Shown here in pieces: positions 1-54,955 of a DNA stretch of 58,855 nucleotides. The notes under the pieces were generated by a model. The model was not told the DNA's origin. It saw only the letters and a list, made by a program, of their open reading frames with translations, and ran no database searches. The stretch is taken from assembly GCA_007695115.1 (NCBI GenBank), contig REEK01000121.1, forward strand, positions 1 through 58,855, written 5' to 3'. The position numbers and the translations under genes are program-made. Each line of letters begins with the position of its first letter. Position 1 is the first letter of the stretch. Source of the DNA: Sphaerobacteraceae bacterium (GTDB lineage: Bacteria > Chloroflexota > Chloroflexia > Thermomicrobiales > Thermomicrobiaceae).

Positions 1-1048
1 CACGTTCGGTGAAGATGACGGTCTGATTGTCGAGCCAGCCGGCGAAGTTCCGGGTTCGGAGTCCGAACCACCGGTGGATGAACTGCCGCTCCCCCTGCAG
101 GTCGAACACGCGCAGCGAACCTACCCGCTCTTCGACGCGGCTGTATTCCTCCCATCGGACCACCAGATCGCCGTCCGGTGACACGATGATCGGGTTCCAC
201 CAGTCGTGAGCTGGATGACTCATGACGTTTCTGCGGGAACCGGATGCCAGATCGAGCGCGATGACCTCGGCGTCTGTCGACACGAGAAGCCATCCCGGGT
301 GCTCCTCCTCGATCTCTGCACTGTTCAGCAGCGGTGCCGCCCCGGATTCCCGGGCAGCCCCATACCCGACAACCAGCAGCGTCACGATCGCGATGATCAC
401 CACCGCGAGAATGCCGATCAACAGCAGCATCGGGTTCCGGTTCAGACTGGCCCGGTGGTTGTCGTCTGCGGGAACGATGGCCGGTGAGGTTCGAACGGTC
501 TCGCGTAATCGTTCATCGAGCGCACGGGAGTTCTCCAGCGCTGCGGAGCAGACGTCGCAGGAGCGCGAGTGGTTGGCCAGCGAGATCAGGGCTTCGGCTT
601 CGAGTGCCGGATCATCGTAGCGCCCGATCGCATCCTGCATGTGAGGGCAGGCGGATTCCTCTGGCGTGGTGACGGACATTCTCGCCTTGAAGAGTGCTGA
701 TCCTGCATCAGCCGGATTGATCCCCAATGCGTGAGACAGGGTTTCGAGATCGATCCGACCACCGGCGTGAAACGCGAGCAGGACCGCGCCTGTGGATGAG
801 ATTCCGCTTGATGGATCGAGCGCTTTGCCGGTGGCTCCAGTCCCAAATGGAATCCGGGAAAAGACGCCAGTCGCCTGATGCCGTTGATGGACCCGGCGAA
901 GGAGTGATCGGAGTTCATCGGCGTCCAGGATCTCTTCATTGCCGAGATCGATGGCGATCTCTTCCTGGCGCTGAAGCAGGGCGAGTATCCGGGAGACGGT
1001 GTCGCGCTCGATCCGGAATGCCCGCCCGTTTCCCGGGGTCTCGCTCAT
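1..1048 (-). CDS. Membrane protein with HTH-like and zinc-finger N-terminus and extracellular propeller (partial)
   Basis: Open minus-strand frame from ATG at 1048 to the window edge (349 codons, C-terminus missing). Residues about 75-105 look like a degenerate sigma-70 region 4 helix-turn-helix (LLAFHAGGRIDLETLSHALG, then a KAR ending). This is followed by an anti-sigma type zinc finger ending HSRSCDVC (HxxxCxxC), one TM segment (LLLIGILAVVIIAIVTLLVV), and an outer part with propeller-like strands (VSPDGDLVVRW, GWLDNQTVIFTE). It starts 7 bp after the stop of the similar 1004-residue gene upstream, so the two are probably co-transcribed tandem paralogues. A membrane-tethered regulator or sensor is inference; no ligand or partner is known. 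Reading frame checked codon by codon. Confidence 0.75.
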   Translation of the reverse strand, partial: MSETPGNGRAFRIERDTVSRILALLQRQEEIAIDLGNEEILDADELRSLLRRVHQRHQATGVFSRIPFGTGATGKALDPSSGISSTGAVLLAFHAGGRIDLETLSHALGINPADAGSALFKARMSVTTPEESACPHMQDAIGRYDDPALEAEALISLANHSRSCDVCSAALENSRALDERLRETVRTSPAIVPADDNHRASLNRNPMLLLIGILAVVIIAIVTLLVVGYGAARESGAAPLLNSAEIEEEHPGWLLVSTDAEVIALDLASGSRRNVMSHPAHDWWNPIIVSPDGDLVVRWEEYSRVEERVGSLRVFDLQGERQFIHRWFGLRTRNFAGWLDNQTVIFTER

Positions 1049-1055
1049 CTGAGGA

Positions 1056-4000
1056 TCACTCCGGGTATCTGATCCGGTAGACGGTGGCATCATCGTCCTC
1101 GCCGATGTTGAACCAGAGTTCGGAATCACTCAGCCAGACCGGGTATTTCGCCGGTGTCCGGTTTCCGGAAACGGCCTGCAACCGGTGATTGGCCATGTCA
1201 TAGACACCGACACGTTCGCCGATTCCAACTGCCAGCGCTCCGCCGTCTGGCGCCCAGTCGAGTCCAGTCGATGGTGAACTGCGGTCGATCTCCAGCGGAT
1301 CGCTGAGATCGGTTGCCCGTGCAATGGAGATACTGTCGATCGCGTCGTCAAGGTCGTTCCGGCTGCTGTAGTGGCGGGCTCGCCAGGCAACATACTCTCC
1401 GCCCGGCTGGATGGCGAGATCGATCATCTCGATGCCGCGCTCCCGACCACGGGGAATAAGATTCAGGATTTCTTCGACCTCGATTCCGTCGTCGCTGAAG
1501 GTTGTCCGGTGCAGTATTGACTGTCCTGGAACGGATCGATTCCACTCCGCCGGCTCCAGGAAGATCAGTGTGCTGTTGTCGATCCACTGGCTGAACGGTG
1601 CAAACTCGTCGATGCGCTCATCCGGAACCTCGAAGCTGGAGACCTCGATCGGTTCGTCATCTGCCGGGTAGGCCCAGAGTGACACGGACCCGGTTTCGGT
1701 GTCGACCGTGAAATAGCTTGTGGTCAGTGCATCCGGGCTGGCCGATGGGGCCGCATATCGAATATGGAGATCGTCGGCTACGCCGTATGGATCAAAAAAT
1801 CCGTCTACCGATGCGCCGCCTCGCTGGCTGGCGCTCAATTGGCTCAGTCGAGATGCTTTGTCGTCGCTCGGGCCGACCGAGGTCACTCCGTACATTGCGT
1901 GGCCGCCGGTGTGCCAGGTCTGTTCGACTGTGCCAGTGGCGACCCACCGCCCGGTCTCGACAAGCGGGAACCAGAGGTAGGGCCGTAGCTCGTCATCATT
2001 CTGTTCCACCATTGGAAGTGCAGCGCCATCGGGGCTGAGCGCGGAATCCGGGCCAAGCTGGGCGTAAGGCCGAAGCTCGTCCACCGTTTCCATCTGCCCG
2101 GGCTCGGCGTAGTCGATCGGTGGGGTATCGGGCAGCATTTCAGCAACCTCGTCGGGAGACATCCAGCGCAGCGGGGTCAGTCTCCACCGGTCAGACATCA
2201 TGGTCGAGACACGCAGGTCCAGTGCGTCATCTACCCAACTCAGATGGATCGTTCCGGGGGTCTCTTGCGCGTGATACGACATGTCTGACGGGAGATAGTG
2301 ATTGTTCCCGAGATGGAGCAGGAACGATCGATCGATGGGCGAGGCCGCGAACCCTGCCTGGTAGCCGAGCGTTCCGGCCATTGTCGGGCGGAATTGCATG
2401 TCATCTTGCGGAAGTTCGATCTCACTGGACTGCCCGGTCGATAGATCCTGCCGGTAGAAACGATAGTCTGAATCAGGATCCTCGAGCAGGATCTGGGTGT
2501 AGATGAGATCGTTGTAGGCATCGTGAAATCCGGAGATCTGCGCGGCATATCCGTGGCCCGGTTCGACCACGGTCTCCAGGTTCCCATTCCGATCGAGCTG
2601 GCTGATTGCAATCTCTTCGATCTCTCCACGAAACGCGGAATCCCGTGAGGTCTCGTCGCGATCATCCTCATAGCTGGTGATTTCAGCGAGATAGACGGCC
2701 TCGCTGTCGTCTCGCCAGAGAAGCCTGCCGGTCCAGGTGAAGGTGTCGTCCAGACTGCCAAGCATCTCGATGGCAACGCCGTCCTCGACTGACCAGAGCT
2801 CGACCGACGGGCCGGGCTCAACTGGATCACGGGGACGGACAATCGCCAGACGGGAACCATCCGGCGACGGAATGACCTGGGCTACTGGTCCCTGATACAC
2901 CGTGCGTTGTTCGCCGGTCAGGACGTTGGTGGCGTTCAGTTGGCTGTCATTCTCCAGACGTTCCAGAAACTGCTCGTTGGATTCTCCGGTCTGGTAGGTC
3001 GGTATCGCAACCGAGAGCAGTTCCTCGTCGGTGAGCCACCCGGTCGGCCATCCGGCGTCTGGTGAATCGTGCCACTCGAGTTCGTTGATCGGTTCTCCGT
3101 CGATTCCGGCAATCGTGACGTGACGGGTGGCCCAGTGCAGACCGGGAACCTCGCCCTGCGCGAAGATGGCTACGCGGTCTCCGCCCGGCGATATCAGATA
3201 GTTGGCTCCGTCGTGCAGATGGGCGGTGTAGTACTCGGGACGGACCACCTCACGGCTCCCTGAGACCGGATCGAAGGCGATCATCCCGCCATCCCATGTG
3301 CCGTAGATGATTCGACCGTGATCCTCGGGTTCGTCGCTCGATACCTGAGACAACAGTGGCGACGCGGCCGGGCTGCTGAGGGCGCTTACCAGTCCAGCAC
3401 TGGCCAGCACAACAGCGCTGATTGCCACAACCACGAGGGCGATCGGCACGAACCCGTAGAGCGACCGTCCGACGAGTGCGGTCCCACCCCGGCGCACGTC
3501 TTCCTGACCGGCCAGTATGTCGATGTGCCTCGCGAGCGTGTCATCCAGCGCCACACAGGCGTCGAGTTCATGCTGGCAGGCTTCGCATTCGGCGATTTGC
3601 CGGTTGATCGACGCGACGACAGCCCGATCAGTCGAACCATCCCGATAGCCAGCCAGAAGCGCCGAATCGTGCTCGGTGCAATGATCGGCGGACTCGGTAA
3701 ATGTGTGGCGAGCCGTTGCCAGTTGCTGGAGAATGGATTCTGTGGTCTGACTGGTGATGGGTGCGAGGCGTTCTGCAGTCAGATTGCAGCCGACGTGGAG
3801 CGCCAGGAGCAGGGTGTCGTTTGCAGGGTGTGAGCGAAGAGATTCGGGAAACTCGCGGGCATCGGTCTCGCCCGGAGACCACCACCGTTGCAGGCTTGAT
3901 CTGAGAAGTCTGGCCCGGGACGATCGGATGACGTTGGCCAGCGCGTCGTCATCGACCTGTTCGGGTAGTCCAGCAGTAATGGCGTCGACCTGGTCGATCG

Positions 4001-4161: not shown

Positions 4162-5292
4162 TCAGCTGAACCGTTCGAGGCTGAAGTGTTCCAGTAGCTC
4201 GTCCGGTTTTCCGGTCGCAATCGCATCGGCAACCAGCACTGCGCTGCCCGGGGCGAGCTGGATGCCTGTCCGATGATGGCCGGTCGAAACCCAGAGCCCG
4301 TCGTAACCAGGCACTGGTCCCATCAGCGGGGTATCGTCGGCGGTGCCGGGACGCAATCCGGCCCAGGTGCTGACGACTTCTGCGTTGCGCAGGCCCGGTC
4401 CGAGGCTCTGCATCAGCTCCATCGCGTACTCCAGCCCGAACGCCGTGACCCGCTTGTCGAACCCGATGTCTTCCAGCGAGGCGCCGACCGCAACGCTGCC
4501 ATCGATGCGCGGCACCAGATAGCCGCCGGTGATCTTGCCGATTACATGACGGGGTCGATCTGCGGCGGATTCCGGCAGGACTCCGATCATCTGGCCCTTG
4601 AACGGGATCAACGGCAGGCTTCGTTCGATAGCCGGGCCGAGGAACCGGGTCCAGGCTCCGGCGGAGAGAACGACTGTGCGTGTACTGATCGGACCGTCTG
4701 GCGTATCGACGCCGGTGACTCGTTCGCCATCGGTCAGGATCGAGACTGCTGGACAACGTTCCCGGATCTGGCCACCAATCGCTTGAAATGCCGCGGCGAC
4801 CGATTCTGTCCAGCGATGTCCGGTGAGCGTTCCGCCGTCCGCGCTGTAGAAGGCACCGAGAATGTCGTGCGGGATCATCGGTTCGAGTTGACGAACTTCA
4901 TCTGGTTCGATCCAGGTGGCGTCGATCCCGTGATTGATCTGCCAGTTGATCTGTGCCTGAGCCAGTTCGACTTCGTCTTCAGTTCGGGCAATCAGCACCT
5001 TGCCGATCGGCAGATAGCTGCTGGGTACGCCGCCGTCTTCTTCTACAGACTCGAGTAGTGCCGGGAAAAGCTTGTGGCTGATCTCCGCCAGCGCTGCCCG
5101 GTGTAATGGCAGCCCGGCGGCACTCGGTGGGCCCATGATTCCGGCGGTAGCCCAGGAGGCTTCGCGCCCGATCTTGCCGTGCTCCAGCAGCAGCGTATTG
5201 ATCTTTCGTTTCTGGAGTTCGTAGGCAAGGGTGCATCCGATGATTCCGCCACCGACGACGATGGCATCCGGGGCTGGTTGATGTTCGATCAC
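4162..5292 (-). CDS. FAD-dependent amino-acid oxidase, glycine oxidase (ThiO)-like
   Basis: 376 residues from GTG at 5292, preceded by GGAGAGG at good spacing; the longer open frame upstream has no family similarity. The N-terminal Rossmann FAD site reads AIVVGGGIIGCTLAYEL, followed by the DAO-type loop (REASWATAGIMGPPSAAG). The C-terminal FAD region reads GLRPGTADDTPLMGPVPG and GHHRTGIQLAPG. The family (DadA/ThiO/SoxB) oxidises glycine, sarcosine or D-amino acids to imines, releasing H2O2. No thiamine genes are nearby, so ThiO is only the best family guess; a sarcosine or D-amino acid oxidase is equally possible. It is cytoplasmic, with no signal peptide, and diverges from the crcB pair. Confidence 0.85.
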   Translation of the reverse strand: MIEHQPAPDAIVVGGGIIGCTLAYELQKRKINTLLLEHGKIGREASWATAGIMGPPSAAGLPLHRAALAEISHKLFPALLESVEEDGGVPSSYLPIGKVLIARTEDEVELAQAQINWQINHGIDATWIEPDEVRQLEPMIPHDILGAFYSADGGTLTGHRWTESVAAAFQAIGGQIRERCPAVSILTDGERVTGVDTPDGPISTRTVVLSAGAWTRFLGPAIERSLPLIPFKGQMIGVLPESAADRPRHVIGKITGGYLVPRIDGSVAVGASLEDIGFDKRVTAFGLEYAMELMQSLGPGLRNAEVVSTWAGLRPGTADDTPLMGPVPGYDGLWVSTGHHRTGIQLAPGSAVLVADAIATGKPDELLEHFSLERFS

Positions 5293-7622: not shown

Positions 7623-10600
7623 ATGGGACTGTTGACGCAGCTTCGAAACCATATCGGCATGAAGCCGAATCCGATCAGCCGATCGACCGACGAGATGCGC
7701 CCCCGGACCGATGGCGCCGACGTGACGGTCAGTGTCTGCCCGTACTGCGCGGTGGGCTGTTCTCAGCTTGTCTACGCCAAGCAGGGCCGGATCATCGATA
7801 TCGAGGGCAACTACGACAGCCCGATCAATGGCGGAACGCTCTGCCCCAAAGGTGCGGCCACCTACGGCCTGCTCCACAATCCTCACCGCGAGACCACGGT
7901 CAAATATCGCGCACCGTATAGCGACCACTGGGAAGAGCGGCCGCTCGAGTGGGCGATGGACCGTATCGCCGAGCGCGTGAAACAGACCCGCGACGCCACC
8001 TATGAGGAGACTGACGAGAACGGCGTTCCGGTGATGCGGACGCTGGGGATCGGTCATCTTGGCGGGGCCACGCTGGACAATGAAGAGAATTATCTGATCA
8101 AGAAGCTCTTCACCGGCGGTCTGGGGATCGTTGCCATCGAGAATCAGGCCCGGATATGACACTCCAGCACGGTGCCCGGTCTGGGCGCCAGACTCGGACG
8201 CGGCGGGGCAACCATGCCGCAACAGTCACTGGCTGATAGCGACTGCATCGTCATCATGGGCTCGAACATGGCCGAGAATCACCCTGTCGGGTTTCGCTTC
8301 GTAATGAAGGCGAAAGAGCGCGGAGCGACGATCATCCATATCGATCCCCGCTTCTCACGGACATCGGCGATGGCTGATCTTCACGTCCCGATTCGTGCCG
8401 GGTCCGACCTGGCGTTCCTCGGCGGGTTGATCAACTACGCGCTGTCGAGCGATCGCTGGGAGAGCGTGCCGTTCTTCCGCGAGTTCGTCCAGAGCTACAC
8501 AAACGGCCCAACGATTATCGGAGACACATTCAAAGACACCGAAGACCTCGCCGGGATGTTCTCGGGCTACGATCCAGAATCCGGCGCGTATGAATCCTCC
8601 ACCTGGGCCTACGATGAGGGCCACCTCGATCCGGAGATGACCGATCCTCGCTGCGCGTTCCAGATCATCAAGCGGCATTTTTCCCGCTATACCCCGGAGA
8701 TGGTGGAGCAGGTCTGCGGTGTGCCGCAAGAGCTCTTCGAGCAGGTTGCCGAGGCGATTCTGACGAGTTCCGGGCCAGATCGGACCACCGCGTTCTGTTA
8801 TGCCGTGGCCTGGACCCAGCACACCACCGGCACACAGATCATCAGCTGCTGCGCGCTGTTGCAGTTGCTGCTGGGGAACATGGGTCGGCCGGGTGGTGGG
8901 ATTCTGGCCCTTCGCGGCCACGCCACGATTCAGGGCAGCACCGATATTCCGACGCTCTACCACCTGCTGCCCGGCTACATATCCATGCCGATGGTCGATG
9001 CCGGTCACCTCGATCTGCAATCGTTCATGGACGCCATCCAGCAACCGAAAGGCTGGTGGCACAACGCCCCGAAGTACATAGTGAGCTTCCTGAAAGCCTG
9101 GTACGGGGATGCCGCGACCGGGGAGAACGACTACTGCTTCGACTATGTTCCGAAGATTTCCGGCGACTACTCCTTTGCGGCGATGATGCCGATGATGAAG
9201 GACGGGACCATCAAGGGGCTCTTCTGCATGGGAATGAACCCGGCGGTCGGTGGGCAGAACTCGAAGCTGATCCGGGAAGGTCTGGCCAATCTCGACTGGA
9301 TGGTGATGCGGGACCCATATGAGATCGAGACGGCCGCCTTCTGGCACGATTCGCCGGAAGTTCGTAGCGGGGAGGTTCGCCCTGAAGACATCAAGACGGA
9401 GATCTTCTTCCTGCCTCCGGCCGTGACACCGGAGAAAGACGGCTCTTACACGAACACGCAGCGGCTGGTTCAGTGGCACGAGAAGGCGGTCGATCCGCCG
9501 GAAGATTGCCGCTCCGAGCCGTGGTTCATGTACCACCTGGGACGGCGCCTGAAAGCTCTCTACGCCGACGAAGAGACCCCACAGGCCCGTCAGCTCCAGG
9601 TGCTGACCTGGGACTACGACACCGAAGGGATCTACGATGACCCGCGTCTGGAGCAGGTGATCGAGGAGATCAACGGCTACACCGTGAGAGATCGGAAACT
9701 CGTCTCCGGATTCGCCGAGTTGAAAGACGACGGCTCGACGGCCTGCGGATGCTGGATCTATTCCGGGATCATGCCGGAACCGGGGCTGAATCTGGCGCGA
9801 AACCGGAAGGGCGACGATGCGGCATCGCTCGAGTGGGGCTTCGCCTGGCCGGCCAACCGGCGGGTTCTCTACAATCGCGCCTCGGCCGATCCGTCCGGTA
9901 AGCCGTGGAGCGAGCGCAAGCGCTGGATCTGGTGGGATGAAGAGCAGGAACGGTGGACTGGCTACGATGTGCCCGACTTCCCGGCTACCAAGCGTCCCGA
10001 CTATCGACCCGGGCCAGATGCCGTCGGTATCGATGCCCATCGCGGCGATGCACCGTTCATCATGATGCCGGACGGCCATGGTTTGCTCTTCGCTCCGGCC
10101 GGACTCGTGGATGGTCCGATTCCGACGCATTACGAACCGTGGGAGAGCCCGGTGACCAATCTGCTCTACCCGGAGCAGGTGCGTTCTCCGGTGGTTCCGA
10201 CGTTCGATCGGCCAGACAATCAGTATCACGAGATCGGCGATCCACGATTTCCCTATGTGCTGACCACCTATCGACTCACCGAGCATCACACCGCTGGTGG
10301 GATGAGTCGATTCGTTCCCTGGCTGGCCGAGCTTCAACCTGGCGGATTTGCCGAGATCAGCCCGGAGCTGGCCGGTGAGTTCGGAATCGACAATGGCGAC
10401 TGGGTAACGCTCACCACCTTACGTGGGGAGATCGAAACCCGGGCGCTGGTGACCGAGCGGTTGCAGCCATTGACGATTCATGGTCGGCCGGTTCACCAGA
10501 TCGGGATGCCGTGGCACTATGGCTGGGGTGGCATGGCCACGGGCGATATCGCCAACGATCTGAGCGCCCTGATCGAGGATCCGAACTCCCGCATTCATCA

Positions 10601-10676
10601 GGCAAAGGCGTTTACCTGCGATCTGAGTCGCGGACGCCTGCCCCGGACGAACGGAGCTTCAGGCGATGATGAGTGA
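7623..10676 (+). CDS. fdhA: Formate dehydrogenase catalytic subunit, selenocysteine-containing
   Basis: 1017 residues when the in-frame TGA at 8157-8159 is read as selenocysteine (residue 179). The N-terminus binds a [4Fe-4S] cluster (C39, C42, C46, C74 in VCPYCAVGCSQ and LCPKGA). The Sec context is ENQARI-U-HSSTVPGLG, the signature of Sec-type formate dehydrogenases, where Sec ligates Mo/W and Cys is the usual substitute. Bis-MGD binding motifs follow (IVIMGSNMAENHPVGF, HIDPRFSRTSAMAD), and a C-terminal molydopterin dinucleotide domain (NGDWVTLTTLRGEIETRALV). Length matches FdnG/FdoG, but there is no twin-arginine signal, so the active site may be cytoplasmic. It is the first gene of fdhA-fdhB-nrfD. 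The enzyme oxidises formate to CO2 and passes electrons to the beta and membrane subunits. A standard gene caller would split it at 8159. Confidence 0.96.
8171..8189 (+). promoter_or_regulatory. SECIS hairpin of fdhA
   Basis: In the mRNA, 11 nt after the UGA, GGUGCCC (8171-8177) pairs with GGGCGCC (8183-8189) over 7 bp around the loop GGUCU (8178-8182). The loop begins 19 nt after the UGA, the same place as the GGUCU of E. coli fdhF. This matches the bacterial SECIS bound by SelB. Confidence 0.9.
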
Positions 10677-47278: not shown

Positions 47279-47312
47279 TATCTCACGATGATTGATTATG
47301 AAGGAGTACCGC

Positions 47313-47624
47313 GTGAACCATGAACAGACCGGAATCGACACCCCTGAAACCAGCGATTCCTATCAACAGGACAAGGCTCGTATTCTGGCCCGATTGCGCC
47401 GCATGGAGGGGCAGGTACGTGGCGTGCAACGAATGGTCGAAGAGGACAAGTACTGTGTCGATATTCTGACGCAGATCTCCTCGATCATGGCCGCCGCTCG
47501 TGGAATCGGCCTGGTGATTCTCGAGGATCACATCCGTGGATGTGTCACCAACGCCGATGATCAGGAAGCTGCCTTGCAGGAAGTGATGGACGCACTGGAG
47601 CGATTTACGAAGAGTGTTGGTTGA
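47313..47624 (+). CDS. csoR: Copper-sensing repressor CsoR
   Basis: 103 residues from GTG 47313, selected because AAGGAG lies 8 bp upstream; ATG 47298 is an in-frame alternative. DUF156/CsoR fold. Cu(I) ligands are C48 (EDKYCVDIL), H73 and C77 (LEDHIRGCV). An Arg in RLRRMEGQVRGVQR fits the DNA-binding face. It represses the copper efflux gene immediately downstream (85 bp), with its operator at 47257-47277. Confidence 0.93.
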   Translation: MNHEQTGIDTPETSDSYQQDKARILARLRRMEGQVRGVQRMVEEDKYCVDILTQISSIMAAARGIGLVILEDHIRGCVTNADDQEAALQEVMDALERFTKSVG

Positions 47625-47709
47625 TCGCGGAATCGATGGATCCCGGCATCTCTGAATCGGGATGGACCATCATTTCGATCAGCGCACGTAGTGAACCCGG
47701 TAGTGAACG

Positions 47710-50511
47710 ATGACCAGTACACCAACCAAGACTGACCAGAACCAGACTGAAGAGCAGGCTCACGAGGCGACGTTGCTCGTCTCCGGAATGACCTGTGCCT
47801 CCTGCGTCCGGCGAGTCGAGCGCGGCCTCGAAAAGCTCGACGGTGTGGGATCGGCCAGCGTCAATCTGGCGACTGAGCGGGCTCGTGTCTCCTATGATCC
47901 GTCTACGCTGTCTCCTGACGATCTCCGGGCTGCGGTCGAAAAGGCAGGCTACGGAGTCGATCAGATCGATGCTGGCGATCCTTCGCCTGCCTCGAACGGG
48001 CATGCGCCGGCGTCGGCCGCTCCCGAGCCTGGCGAGATCACGCTCGATGTCGAGGGAATGACCTGCGCATCGTGTGTCCGCCGTGTCGAGCGCTCATTGA
48101 GCCGGGTGGACGGAGTCAGCCAGGCGAGCGTCAACTTCGCCACCGAGCAGGCCACCGTCTCCTATGACCCGGCATCGGTCGATATCAACGCACTGACGGC
48201 GGCGGTTGAGAAGGCGGGATTCGGCGCAAGCGTTCCGCAGGCACGCGAGTCTGCGAGCTCTGCGCAACATGCCCAGTCCGCTCAGGAACAGGTTGACCCG
48301 CGAGAAGCGGCCCGAGAGCGGGAGATGAACGATCTCAAGCGCAAGTGGATCGTCGGTCTGGCGATCGGCGCGGTGATGATGATCGAGATGTATGTCCCGC
48401 TCGGGATCGACATGGAGTATCTGGCACCGCTGATGCTCATTCAGGCGGCGATCGTGCAGTTCTGGGCTGGCTCGATCTTCTACAAGGGCGCCTGGGCTGC
48501 CGCAAAACATTTCACGACCAATATGAACACGTTGGTGGCTATCGGCACCAGTGTCGCGTTCGGCTACAGCGCATTCGTGACGCTCTGGCCCGGCCTGGCC
48601 GCACAATGGGGATTTCCGTTCCATCTCTATTTCGAGACTGCGGTGGTCATCATCGCGCTCGTCCTGATGGGGCGCTGGATGGAAGCCCGAGCCAAGAAGC
48701 AGACGAGCTCTGCCATCAAGGCGCTGGCCGGATTGCAGGCACGCACGGCACGGGTCATTCGTGATGGTGTGGAACAGGATATCCCGATTGAGTCGGTTCA
48801 GGCTGGTGATCACGTCCGAGTTCGACCGGGCGAGAAAGTGCCGGTCGACGGGGTGATCGTCGAGGGCGCATCGGCACTCGACGAGAGCATGCTGACTGGC
48901 GAGAGTGTGCCGGTGGAAAAGAGTGCCGACGACCAGGTGATCGGTGCCACGATCAACAAGACCGGAAGCTTCGTGTTCCGGGCAACCAAGGTTGGTCGAG
49001 ATACCACGCTGTCTCAGATCATGCGTATGGTCGAAGAAGCACAGGGGTCGAAGGCGCCGATGCAGGCGATGGTCGACACCATCTCGAGCTACTTCGTGCC
49101 GATCGTGCTGGTGGCGGCCTCACTCGCGTTTGCTGTATGGCTCGCCTTCGGACCCGGACTGATCTTCGCGCTGACCGTGATGATCGCGACACTGATTATC
49201 GCCTGCCCGTGTGCGCTCGGACTGGCTACGCCGACGGCGATTATGGTCGGAACCGGAAAAGCGGCCGAGAACGGCATTCTGGTGCGCGGTGGAGAAGCGC
49301 TGGAGATGACTCGCCGCATCGACACGATCGTGCTAGACAAGACCGGCACCCTGACACAGGGCAAGCCGACGGTAACGGAGATCGTTACGGCCAACGGAAT
49401 GCCGGAGTCCGACGTTCTTGGTCTGGCCGCTGCCGCGGAAGTCGGCTCAGAGCATCCCCTCGGTGAGGCGATCGTCAATCGAGCGCAGGAACTGGGGCTC
49501 GATCTATCGCAATCAGAAGGTTTTCAGTCGATCACCGGCAAGGGTATCGAAGCTCGTGTCGACGGACGTCAGGTGCTGATCGGCAATCGGGCACTGATGG
49601 ATCAGTACAGCATCGAGTTGGATGGGCTGACGGCCCGGGCGACCGAGATGGCTGCTGGAGGCGTCACGCCGATGTATGTGGCGGTTGACAACACCGGAGC
49701 CGGGATCATCGCTGTGGCTGACACGCTGAAGCCGGAGTCGACCGAAGCGGTCGCCAAGCTCAAGGCACTCGGCCTGGAAGTCTGGATGATCACCGGCGAT
49801 AACCAGGCAACCGCAGAAGCGATTGCCCGGCAGGTCGGTATCGATCACGTCCTGGCTGAGGTCCTTCCGGAACAGAAGGCCGAGAAAGTCGTCTCATTCC
49901 AGGATGAAGGCCGTACGGTGGCGATGGTCGGCGACGGGATCAACGACGCCCCGGCGCTGGCTCAGGCGAACCTCGGCATTGCGATCGGCACCGGAACTGA
50001 CGTCGCAATGGCGGCATCGGACATCACGCTGATTGGTGGCGATCTCCGGACGATCGTAACCGCGATCGCCCTCTCCCGGAAGACGGTTGGCGCGATCAAG
50101 CAGGGTCTGTTCTGGGCGTTCGGGTACAACACGCTGCTGATTCCAGTGGCGATGGGAATTCTCTATCCGTTCTTCGGATTGCTGCTGAATCCGGTTCTGG
50201 CCGCCGCAGCGATGGCGATGAGCAGCGTCTCGGTGGTAACCAATGCGTTGCGCTTGCGAGGCTTCCGCCAGCCAGACACGGCGGAGGAGATCCTGAACCC
50301 GCCCCTGAAGGCTCGGATTGGCGAATATGCGTACCTGGTCGCGATCGGCGTGGTGGCGATCATCGTCGGTGGCTTCGCGCTGGTGTTGGCGAATCCAGAT
50401 CATGCCGAGGGACATGCCCCAGGCGGACATTCTGATCACGGCGCAGTGGTTGAGCCGGCGCCAGTAGCGGATCACGGACAGCCCGGGATCGTCCTGGAGG
50501 ATGAGCGGTAG
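47710..50511 (+). CDS. copA: Copper-exporting P1B-type ATPase
   Basis: 933 residues. Two N-terminal HMA domains, each with GMTCASC (about residues 26-32 and 116-122), then eight TM helices including the ion channel [14 protein letters not shown] (about 497). Cytoplasmic motifs: GESVPVEK (A-domain), phosphorylated Asp in [10 protein letters not shown] (about 543), SEHPLGEAI, and [10 protein letters not shown]. The C-terminus ends in a His/Asp-rich tail ([17 protein letters not shown]). It exports Cu(I). Directly regulated by the upstream CsoR. Note that its HMA pairs are CxxC, in contrast to the UxxC of the Sec-HMA protein elsewhere in the window. Confidence 0.96.
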
Positions 50512-53026: not shown

Positions 53027-53392
53027 TTAGTCACTCATATCTTCCCAGGAATCGGGCCGATAGCCGATCCCTTCGAGTTCATCCATGATCTCGTCGATCG
53101 AGACGTGATCGGCATCGTACCGGAGTTCGACCACATCGCTCTGAAAGTCGGTGCTGTGGTCCAGAACGCCGTCAATGCTGTTCAACTCGGACGCGACCGC
53201 GCCCGCGCAAGACTGTCAGGTCATGCCCAGATTCTGGAGCATGACGTGTTGTTCACCAGATGCTGAAGCTCCGGGAGAGACTGATTCTTCGTCGTCACCC
53301 GATAGAGCCGTTGTCGCAATCAGGAAGGCGCCAGCGCCGACCATGAAAAATGCGCCGAGTGCAAGCAAGATCGTACTGAAAGATTTCCCCAT
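53027..53392 (-). CDS. Membrane-anchored HMA metal-binding selenoprotein (GMTUxxC)
   Basis: 121 residues when TGA at 53216-53218 is read as Sec (residue 59). N-terminal helix (FSTILLALGAFFMVGAGAFLIATTAL) is a signal anchor, followed by an acidic linker. Then the HMA domain: MLQNLGMT-U-QSCAGAVASELNSIDGV, LDHSTDFQSDVVELRYDADHV, EIMDELEGIGYRPDS. In MerP/CopZ/Atx1-like domains this motif is GMTCxxC, so the first metal ligand is Sec and the second is Cys62. ATG at 53392 has GGAG 9 bp upstream; ATG 53401 is possible. It lies 6 bp before rlmN and 187 bp after the Sec-CcdA gene. Likely partner or substrate of CcdA outside the membrane (inference). Confidence 0.93.
53189..53204 (-). promoter_or_regulatory. 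SECIS hairpin of the Sec-HMA gene
   Basis: GGGCGC (12-17 nt after the UGA) pairs with GCGUCC (22-27) around the loop GGUC at 18-21. Same loop and spacing as the FDH and CcdA elements and as E. coli fdhF. Confidence 0.88.
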
Positions 53393-53579
53393 CGATGTCA
53401 TCTCCGTCAATCAGTAGAAGGGTCTGGAACATCCGGTCGATGTACTGGTATTAATCTTACCCTGTGTAGCCGGGTTATGCTGCGCAACTACTACCAGGGC
53501 GATGACCGGACACTGCGACGCTGAAATGCTGGCTGTACCGGGGTAGCCGCATCACAACATCGTAGTGGTTATCTGGAGA

Positions 53580-54461
53580 CTAAACCGGGAATACCGTCGC
53601 GAAGTAATCCGCCCAGATAGCGAGGGCGAGGAACCAGATGCCAACTCCGATGAGGACCATCCCGCCAAAGCGTTTTGCGCTTGATGAAGCGATTCGAAGT
53701 GAACGAATCGTCTGTTCGCGAGCGGTCGTCACCAGTATCGCGAGGGTGAACATCAGTGCGAGGATGACGATGCTTGCCGTGAGGAAGGCTCCGATCGCGG
53801 CGGCAGTTCCTCCGATGACGAGAGCATAGGCGGCCAGACCGGCCAGAATCGGCCCTGTTCAGCCGAAGCCCGCCACCAGGTATCCGAAGCCGAAGAGTGA
53901 GATTCGCCCGATCCCGGCGTTGGCTCCACGTTGTTTGACCGCCCCAACGAGCGGGTCAGCCAGATCCTGAACGGGTGGGATACGGAAGGGAAACACTCCG
54001 AGTTGAACCAGTCCGAGAAGGATCAGCAAGGAGCCAACAACGCTCCGCAGGATGACCCCTTCGGTACTGGCGAACACGACTCCTTCGAACACCTGTGTTC
54101 CCGCCACCGCGATAATCCCGCCGATTATCAACAGGAACGCTGTGGCACCGCCTGACAGGGCCATCGCAAACGGTAGCGTCTGGCGCCATGATGGGCGATG
54201 TCCGCTCCGCTCCTGGCTGGGTGATCTCCCGAACAGACTGATGAGCAGCGGAAACGAACACGGTGAAAAGAAACTGGCGATGCCAGCTCCGGCAGCCAGC
54301 ACGAAGAGCCCGGCAACAGTGACTCCCGGCAGATCAAACCGTGGATAGATCACATATCCCAGATAGCCGACGAGACTGGCCAGGATCAGCCCGACGAGGA
54401 TCGCACCGTAGCCGATGATTGAGCGGCTGGTCAGGGTGGACAGAGTGTTGTGCTGTTTCAC
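53580..54461 (-). CDS. CcdA/DsbD-like membrane redox selenoprotein
   Basis: 293 residues when TGA at 53859-53861 is read as Sec (residue 201), from GTG 54461 with AGAGG upstream. About seven TM helices. The first redox Cys68 lies in GIASFFSPCSFPLLISLFG, the second position in the later half reads ISLFGFGYLVAGFG-U-TGPILAGLAAYAL. In CcdA this is GCxGPIL or similar, so Sec replaces the second of the two intramembrane cysteines that shuttle electrons from cytoplasmic thioredoxin to outer-side proteins. The frame continues without interruption to TAG at 53580. It is just downstream of merR, with a MerR-type promoter between. Confidence 0.92.
53831..53845 (-). promoter_or_regulatory. SECIS hairpin of the Sec-CcdA gene
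   Basis: UGGCC (14-18 nt after the UGA) pairs with GGCCG (24-28, one U-G) around GGUCU at 19-23. The loop sequence and distance are identical to the fdhA element. Confidence 0.88.
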
Positions 54462-54502
54462 GGTGCCTCTCACCTTGTGGCGTTCCTTCGAACTCTGATG
54501 AG

Positions 54503-54534
54503 AGGCTACCGTCTCCACTCGACTGGAGAGTCAA
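54503..54534 (-). promoter_or_regulatory. MerR-type promoter/operator inside the merR 3' end
   Basis: On the minus strand TTGACT (54534-54529), 20-bp spacer, TAGCCT (54508-54503). The spacer holds an imperfect dyad, about CTCTCCA-GTCGAG-TGGAGA. The over-long spacer (20 bp, as for ZntR-type sites) with a central dyad is the hallmark of MerR-family activation, and the transcript would start about 35 nt before the Sec-CcdA GTG. The site overlaps the last nine codons of merR. Confidence 0.8.
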
Positions 54535-54955
54535 GGACTTCTGGGGTTCCTGCATTGAGGGACTCTATGGCCGGGCAGACCACCTCAACGAGTGATCCAT
54601 CCGAATGCTCCGCGTTGTCCAGTTCGTACAGTGTTCGAGACAGATTATCGCGCATCGCCTGAAGCTGGACGATACGGTCATCGAGTTCCTGCATATTCTG
54701 TTCGACAGCCGAGCGAACACAGGGGCAAGGTGAGTGTTCAGTGGAGGCTGAAGCGAGTATCCGTCTGATCTGCTCCAGCCTGAGACCAAGCCCCTGCGCC
54801 GCACGAATGAACGCCAGTTGCTGCTGGTGACGATCGGTGAACAGGCGGTAACCGGACTCTGTCCGGGATGCCGTCCCAAGCAACCCGATATCTTCGTAGT
54901 AGCGGATCGTCCGCACCGGGACGCCAGTTTTTTCCGCCAGTTCTCCGATTCGCAT
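54506..54955 (-). CDS. MerR-family metal-responsive regulator (ZntR/CadR-like)
   Basis: 149 residues from ATG 54955 with GGAGACC upstream. N-terminal winged helix RIGELAEKTGVPVRTIRYYEDIGLL, dimerisation coiled coil (SAVEQNMQELDDRIVQLQAM), metal-site candidates C77 and C79 (SPCPCV) and C127 (VVCPAIESL). Compared with ZntR/CadR (several Cys/His) and MerR (three Cys), the exact metal cannot be assigned. It follows rraA by 20 bp and probably controls the downstream Sec-CcdA/Sec-HMA genes through the operator that overlaps its own 3' end. Confidence 0.9.
   Translation of the reverse strand: MRIGELAEKTGVPVRTIRYYEDIGLLGTASRTESGYRLFTDRHQQQLAFIRAAQGLGLRLEQIRRILASASTEHSPCPCVRSAVEQNMQELDDRIVQLQAMRDNLSRTLYELDNAEHSDGSLVEVVCPAIESLNAGTPEVLDSPVEWRR

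Follow-up and report, generated by a model that had tools for sequence, protein, structure and literature searches.

A MerR-type operon with two predicted selenoproteins, a CcdA-like membrane protein and an HMA-domain protein, as a candidate selenium-based metal-handling relay

The 2026 inventory of selenoproteins (PMC13188914) lists 119 families, among them an HMA protein with two selenocysteines (Sec, UxxU), Sec forms of MerT and of P-type ATPase, and a Sec rhodanese/DsbD fusion, TsoB, with the motif UxxxxU. No CcdA protein whose redox site holds one Sec is listed among these 119 families (PMC13188914). The 2025 deep-Sep paper makes no mention of CcdA or DsbD, and novelty relative to Haft & Gwadz 2023 and Haft & Tolstoy 2025 is judged from the tabulation in the 2026 review (PMC13188914). 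Like the system described here, TsoB (NF045694) belongs to a selenoprotein operon and has a membrane part resembling DsbD. However, TsoB has two Sec in UxxxxU and is grouped with rhodanese domains (PMC13188914), whereas the present protein has a single Sec. The UxxxxU pair cannot correspond to the two CcdA cysteines, since those positions are 133 residues apart in the Sec-containing CcdA-like protein (Sec-CcdA), and no match of Sec-CcdA to NF045694 (curated cut-off 805 bits) was obtained. The SAO and Tso operons (cited in PMC13188914) likewise hold several selenoproteins per operon, with possible metal(loid) chemistry, but their families are different, and here the genes are CcdA and HMA under MerR control. 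HMA proteins with Sec as a metal ligand are represented by NF041115, a UxxU metal-binding (seleno)protein, and the MerT/CopZ fusion-like NF045683; in contrast, the HMA protein of this locus is UxxC and anchored at its N-terminus. An earlier note, made from the sequence alone, knew of no description of this three-gene Sec set. None appears in the 2026 inventory, but Sec-HMA proteins were already known (NF041115, NF045683).

Two Sec-free systems are also close. The mer operon (merR-merT-merP) joins a MerR-type operator, a membrane protein and an HMA protein in the same way; here, however, MerT and MerA are absent, the membrane component resembles CcdA and the MerR protein has no third Hg-binding Cys. 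A canonical mer operon was rejected, with no MerT in the operon and no MerA over the cut-off in the genome. CcdA and DsbD (PF02683; structure 5vkv) share with Sec-CcdA both intramembrane redox positions, the core helices and the overall core length. They differ in that the second redox residue of Sec-CcdA is Sec, with FGUTGP where CcdA has TPCxGP (a Gly replaces the Pro preceding the second CcdA Cys), in an extra N-terminal helix of Sec-CcdA with a conserved YPRFxLP loop, and in company: CcdA goes with cytochrome c maturation, Sec-CcdA with HMA and MerR.

The locus lies in a stretch of 58,855 nucleotides (the window) on contig REEK01000121.1 of a Sphaerobacteraceae bacterium. Its order on the minus strand is merR, ccdA (GFG-U-TGPIL), hma (GMT-U-QSC), then rlmN. 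Genes, operator and the two TGA codons were all confirmed at the places given by the earlier note:

54506..54955 (-), merR, MerR-family regulator of 149 aa, uninterrupted frame
54503..54534 (-), MerR-type promoter/operator: TTGACT, 20 bp with the dyad TCTCCA-GTCGAG-TGGAGA, TAGCCT; inside the 3' end of merR
53580..54518 (-), ccdA-like gene, frame uninterrupted except for a single TGA; assigned from its translation, homologues with the conserved TGA and the CcdA profile match
53859..53861 (-), TGA of ccdA, predicted Sec at residue 220 (numbered in the drawn ORF); in the alignment this residue falls on the second redox Cys of CcdA
53831..53845 (-), SECIS-like hairpin of ccdA, TGGCC-GGTCT-GGCCG, apical loop 18 nt after the TGA
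53027..53392 (-), hma, 121 aa, GMT-U-QSC, frame uninterrupted except for a single TGA
53216..53218 (-), TGA of hma, predicted Sec; residue 59, by alignment the first metal ligand of the HMA CxxC
53188..53205 (-), SECIS-like hairpin of hma, CGGGCGC-GGTC-GCGTCCG, apical loop 17 nt after the TGA

Since the first codons of the drawn ccdA frame fall within the operator, translation probably starts at the GTG at 54461, with AGAGG preceding it in the sequence; the product would then be of 293 aa.

A strong case can be made from sequence that both TGAs are selenocysteine codons. The genome of the window encodes tRNA-Sec (selC, 74.7 bits), SelA (524), SelB (361) and SelD (367), all above cut-off, and its selD itself carries an in-frame TGA. 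An internal control for SECIS shape and spacing is provided by fdhA, for formate dehydrogenase alpha, at 7623-10676 (+) of the window; its in-frame Sec TGA is at 8157, and the 1018-aa readthrough product scores 1513 bits against the formate dehydrogenase model. As an Rfam scan of the window gave no match, the bacterial SECIS elements were examined by hand. The fdhA hairpin (GGTGCCC-GGTCT-GGGCGCC) has the same shape as that of ccdA, and in fdhA, ccdA and hma alike the GGTC apical loop lies 17 or 18 nt after the TGA. Only 7 of the 2001 TGA trinucleotides in the window have GGTC on a stem of at least 5 bp at that distance (chance about 0.35%). Among ten Sec-HMA genes from several families the hma stem covaries, with 13 two-sided compensatory cells, a value reached in 0 of 500 shuffles. 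Covariation of the ccdA hairpin is weak by itself (48 of 500 shuffles), because the hairpin core hardly varies.

Beyond its TGA, ccdA is under purifying selection: in same-genus pairs dN/dS is about 0.08-0.11 (0.083/1.033, 0.151/1.329 and 0.132/1.661), and the other reading frames do not have this low pattern. For hma, dN is 0.25-0.31 with dS of 0.86 or saturated, so that dN/dS, about 0.35, comes from the single unsaturated pair. Across 158 genomes of the class, the intact CcdA-like homologues, from the genus of the window and from other families, have TGA at the same site (AGFG-U-TGP) and share the C-terminus FPV; two further single-TGA ccdA homologues come from another class (G688 and G645; genomes are denoted G, loci L). 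tRNA-Sec was detected in 11 of the 13 genomes of the class with a TGA copy, the two others being G107 (84% complete) and G119 (62% complete). The earlier note had read both TGAs as Sec at positions held by Cys in their families and had described GGUC-loop SECIS hairpins. The hairpins were found 18 nt (ccdA) and 17 nt (hma) after the TGA, and the Sec machinery and the conserved TGA agree with this reading. Orthologues ending at the TGAs, TGC or TGT in their place, or genes that do not occur together would have spoken against the note; instead, the orthologues read past the TGA and keep it, and the genes co-occur. Decaying Sec-ccdA copies, with frameshifts and the TGA changed or lost, were seen in the genus-level group g5 (G120, G123 and G124; L071, L072 and L073).

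Sec-CcdA on its own gave no direct match in Pfam or NCBIfam. When the single protein was searched against genome contigs no related loci were found, tblastn of plasmids gave no matches, and an alignment query of genome contigs returned a single relative with Cys, whose MAG carries the label Euryarchaeota. Relationship to CcdA is seen at the level of profiles. The Sec-CcdA profile aligns with a generic CcdA alignment at 99.2% probability (hhalign, E 1e-19) with the Cys columns matched, and when 31 CcdA relatives are aligned, the columns of C87 (SPCSFPL) and of position 220 hold Cys or Sec throughout and fall on the two redox Cys positions of CcdA. The profile of these 31 relatives, in which generic members dominate, finds Thermus CcdA (5vkv) at 1.6e-41. 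Cys relatives of the same subfamily (L111, L112) exceed the cut-off of Pfam DsbD_TM (PF02683). In the tree, ten Sec proteins group together (support 85/91) next to a set of four Cys proteins (94/92), and the two sets jointly stand apart from generic CcdA (100/100). Thus C87 and U220, 133 residues apart, occupy the two intramembrane redox positions of CcdA. The AlphaFold model is moderate (pLDDT 77 with the 31-sequence alignment, 57 with 8 sequences), and its match to 5vkv (Z 7.8, rmsd 4.1 A, 192/224 aligned) is within noise because other helical bundles, unrelated transporters and NqrE, score alike. A solved-structure search with the Sec subfamily alone gave a chance match only. By these sequence comparisons the membrane protein is related to CcdA but divergent, and its predicted Sec takes the place of the second redox Cys. 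Judged by the 2026 inventory, it belongs to a new selenoprotein family, within a metal-responsive thiol system whose arrangement is also new. As gene finders will have truncated both proteins at the TGA, annotations probably under-represent the family.

The hma product contains an HMA domain (PF00403; Pfam E 2.1e-11, above cut-off) in which the first Cys of GMxCxxC is Sec, i.e. UxxC. It also matches CopZ (47 bits), HMA domains in the PDB and MerP; against NF041115 it scores 42 bits, below the curated cut-off of 95, the motif being UxxC and not UxxU. In the genus of the window the protein has a single N-terminal hydrophobic segment with Lys before it and acidic residues after it, from which the HMA domain is predicted to lie outside the membrane. 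In contrast, the HMA partners in G101 and G104 (NMHUAGC, GMHUAGC) and in G715 are without a membrane anchor and, to judge from their sequences, should be cytosolic. The membrane-anchored HMA of the earlier note is therefore supported in this locus by the one N-terminal hydrophobic segment, but HMA partners in other genomes do not generally have such an anchor. Sec-HMA genes with this SECIS are also present elsewhere in the class, a number of them next to genes for HMA-bearing P-type ATPases and DUF7482. L154, L155, L156 and L157 hold further small UxxC HMA genes with a SECIS hairpin of this kind; none adjoins a Sec-CcdA gene, and several are close to genes for HMA-bearing P-type ATPases and DUF7482.

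The regulator matches Pfam MerR_1 (2.4e-20) and MerR-DNA-bind (2e-14). Its best NCBIfam models are ZntR, CueR and CadR, each below cut-off, as is the MerR model, and the nearest structures are CadR, the Hg-binding MerR 4ua1 and CueR. It does not have all three metal-binding Cys of an Hg(II)-sensing MerR (79, 114 and 123 in 4ua1): by alignment the equivalents of Cys79 and Cys123 are kept, that of Cys114 is absent, and the score is below the MerR cut-off. The MerR proteins of all these operons keep the Cys79 equivalent and the Cys123 equivalent near the C-terminus. In MerR sensors, a Cys at the first of these positions points to divalent ions, not Cu(I). Both the MerR DNA-binding domains and a promoter with 19-20 bp spacing and a dyad are present, and the −10 hexamer of the operator contains the merR stop codon. 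The MerR-type control proposed in the earlier note is thus borne out by an operator inside the 3' end of merR (54503-54534), and the same layout recurs at the merR/ccdA junction of G107, G101, G104 and G151 (loci L062, L064, L043 and L065). In G101, G104 and G151 the operator has the more common form TTGACCTTCCAG-nnn-CTGGAAGGT. By eye, an operator-like sequence also follows merR in G688, and another lies just before ccdA(U) in G645 (L165, about 5100-5200 (-)), where no merR is adjacent.

In the neighbourhood survey CcdA and HMA are repeatedly found as a pair, both as Sec and as Cys proteins, and in most lineages they are under MerR-type control. The order merR-ccdA(U)-hma(U)-rlmN is found in the window, G107 and G110, and G108 has ccdA(U)-hma(U)-rlmN from the contig end. 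In another family (G101, G104) the order is merR-ccdA(U)-DUF7482-hma(U), and G153 has ccdA(U)-DUF7482 from the contig end. In G151 the operon reads merR-thioredoxin-ccdA(U)-DUF7482-arsR-aquaporin, with arsR and aquaporin assigned by eye and the ccdA frame broken by an apparent frameshift; its gene between merR and ccdA(U) is of the ArsE/MTH895 thioredoxin-like type, a direct hint of a thiol-redox partner. Cys forms are merR-ccdA(C)-DUF7482 in G369 and, in G715, an hma(C) that overlaps ccdA(C) by 4 nt; the neighbour of Cys relatives is a TlpA/DUF3179 or DUF3179 protein. The earlier note had proposed to look for Cys orthologues and for conservation of the merR-ccdA-hma order: Cys forms exist, and the order is kept in the genus and, with DUF7482 inserted, in another family. 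In group g5, Sec-CcdA stands beside an OsmC-like gene (by eye) between rraA and rlmN, without adjacent merR or hma.

Other genes of these neighbourhoods deserve mention. DUF7482 genes recur beside ccdA or hma (L111, L043, L064, L065, L067 and L157); PF24298 was confirmed for L111 and L064, and the others were assigned by eye. The copy in G101 lacks Cys but contains many Met and a few His residues, which suggests a metal-binding envelope protein. The metal locus of G715 (L166, 1-7136) holds part of a P-type ATPase, DUF7482, three small HMA genes (one with Sec) and two CcdA-like genes, so that Sec and Cys versions stand side by side. In G688 a small Cys-rich gene (GDCCVICSYG; L164, about 1000-1250 (-)) lies between merR and ccdA(U) and has an in-frame TGA (DY-U-LVFHTC); it is perhaps a third selenoprotein of such operons, and no GGTC hairpin was found at the usual distance from this TGA.

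We consider it fairly probable that the locus encodes a selenium-based metal-handling relay, with a Cys-Sec intramembrane redox (or metal-transfer) centre in a CcdA-type protein and a Sec-ligated HMA domain, both MerR-induced. More tentatively, though as a plausible form of it, we propose that MerR controls a pair of selenoproteins that handle a soft metal (or metalloid) in the cell envelope, in which CcdA acts as an electron conduit and, as the earlier note had suggested, keeps the HMA protein reduced. Metal bound to MerR would switch the operon on, and the selenol/thiol pair of HMA would bind metal more tightly, and at a lower pH, than a pair of thiols. Electrons from cytosolic thioredoxin would pass the CcdA-type protein by way of a C87-U220 selenenylsulfide, and the exposed HMA selenol would thereby stay reduced and could bind again. 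Electron transfer is favoured on two grounds: Sec-CcdA shares its family and both redox positions with CcdA, and one of the operons includes a thioredoxin gene. Several observations argue against this model. The unanchored, apparently cytosolic HMA proteins of G101, G104 and G715 would not need CcdA to stay reduced; the Sec-CcdA copies of g5 stand without merR or hma beside them; the residue before the second redox position is Gly where CcdA has Pro; and Sec-CcdA has no direct Pfam or NCBIfam match and a moderate model whose resemblance to CcdA is within noise.

The same apparently cytosolic partners make a metal hand-off of the MerR-MerT-MerP kind a close rival. HMA would here give a soft metal to, or take it from, a CcdA-type protein with intramembrane C87 and U220 as ligands along a transport path, the CcdA fold thus serving anew as a transporter, a reading that is possible, if on the doubtful side. 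Its operon logic is that of merR-merT-merP, it allows for both anchored and unanchored HMA partners, and Sec-HMA genes elsewhere in the class adjoin HMA-bearing P-type ATPases and DUF7482. Sec MerT and a Sec MerT/CopZ fusion are moreover catalogued (PMC13188914; NF045683), and MerR keeps two of the three Hg-binding Cys. However, by sequence the membrane protein belongs with CcdA, an electron conduit, and it keeps both of the CcdA redox positions; each protein offers only one Cys and one Sec, far apart in sequence; a thioredoxin-like gene lies in the G151 operon; and no gene in the genome is above the MerA cut-off.

It is unlikely that the system gives general thiol/peroxide protection of the envelope, with Sec-CcdA reducing whatever thiol proteins are present, HMA as one client among several and MerR sensing metal or thiol stress. 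The solitary g5 copies beside the OsmC-like gene and the TlpA/DUF3179 neighbours of relatives would fit such a role, but the MerR operator and HMA recur in other lineages. Handling of arsenite or organoarsenicals instead of a metal ion seems quite improbable: the ArsR-family and aquaporin genes (by eye) that follow in the G151 operon, and its extra thioredoxin of the MTH895/ArsE type, belong to one contig only, and elsewhere the HMA pairing and MerR suggest a metal cation. That both TGAs are true stops or assembly errors, with accidental frames downstream, is scarcely credible: the evidence is genomic DNA alone, but the same TGA stands in many independent assemblies, dN/dS beyond it is about 0.1, and SECIS hairpins and Sec machinery are present.

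If the relay reading is true, the two proteins would form a selenoprotein pair of a new functional class, and Sec-CcdA would be the first CcdA with Sec. Single-Sec intramembrane electron conduits are absent from the catalogued families, and a buried Cys-Sec pair therefore lets one ask why selenium pays there. Two Sec proteins under one metal sensor would also offer a clean test of Sec as metal ligand versus Sec in redox catalysis. Elsewhere in the window, about 2.5 kb from the operon and on the opposite strand, a gene for a CsoR-type repressor is followed by one for a P-type ATPase with two Cys-type HMA domains (47292-50511 (+)), a possible partner metal exporter.
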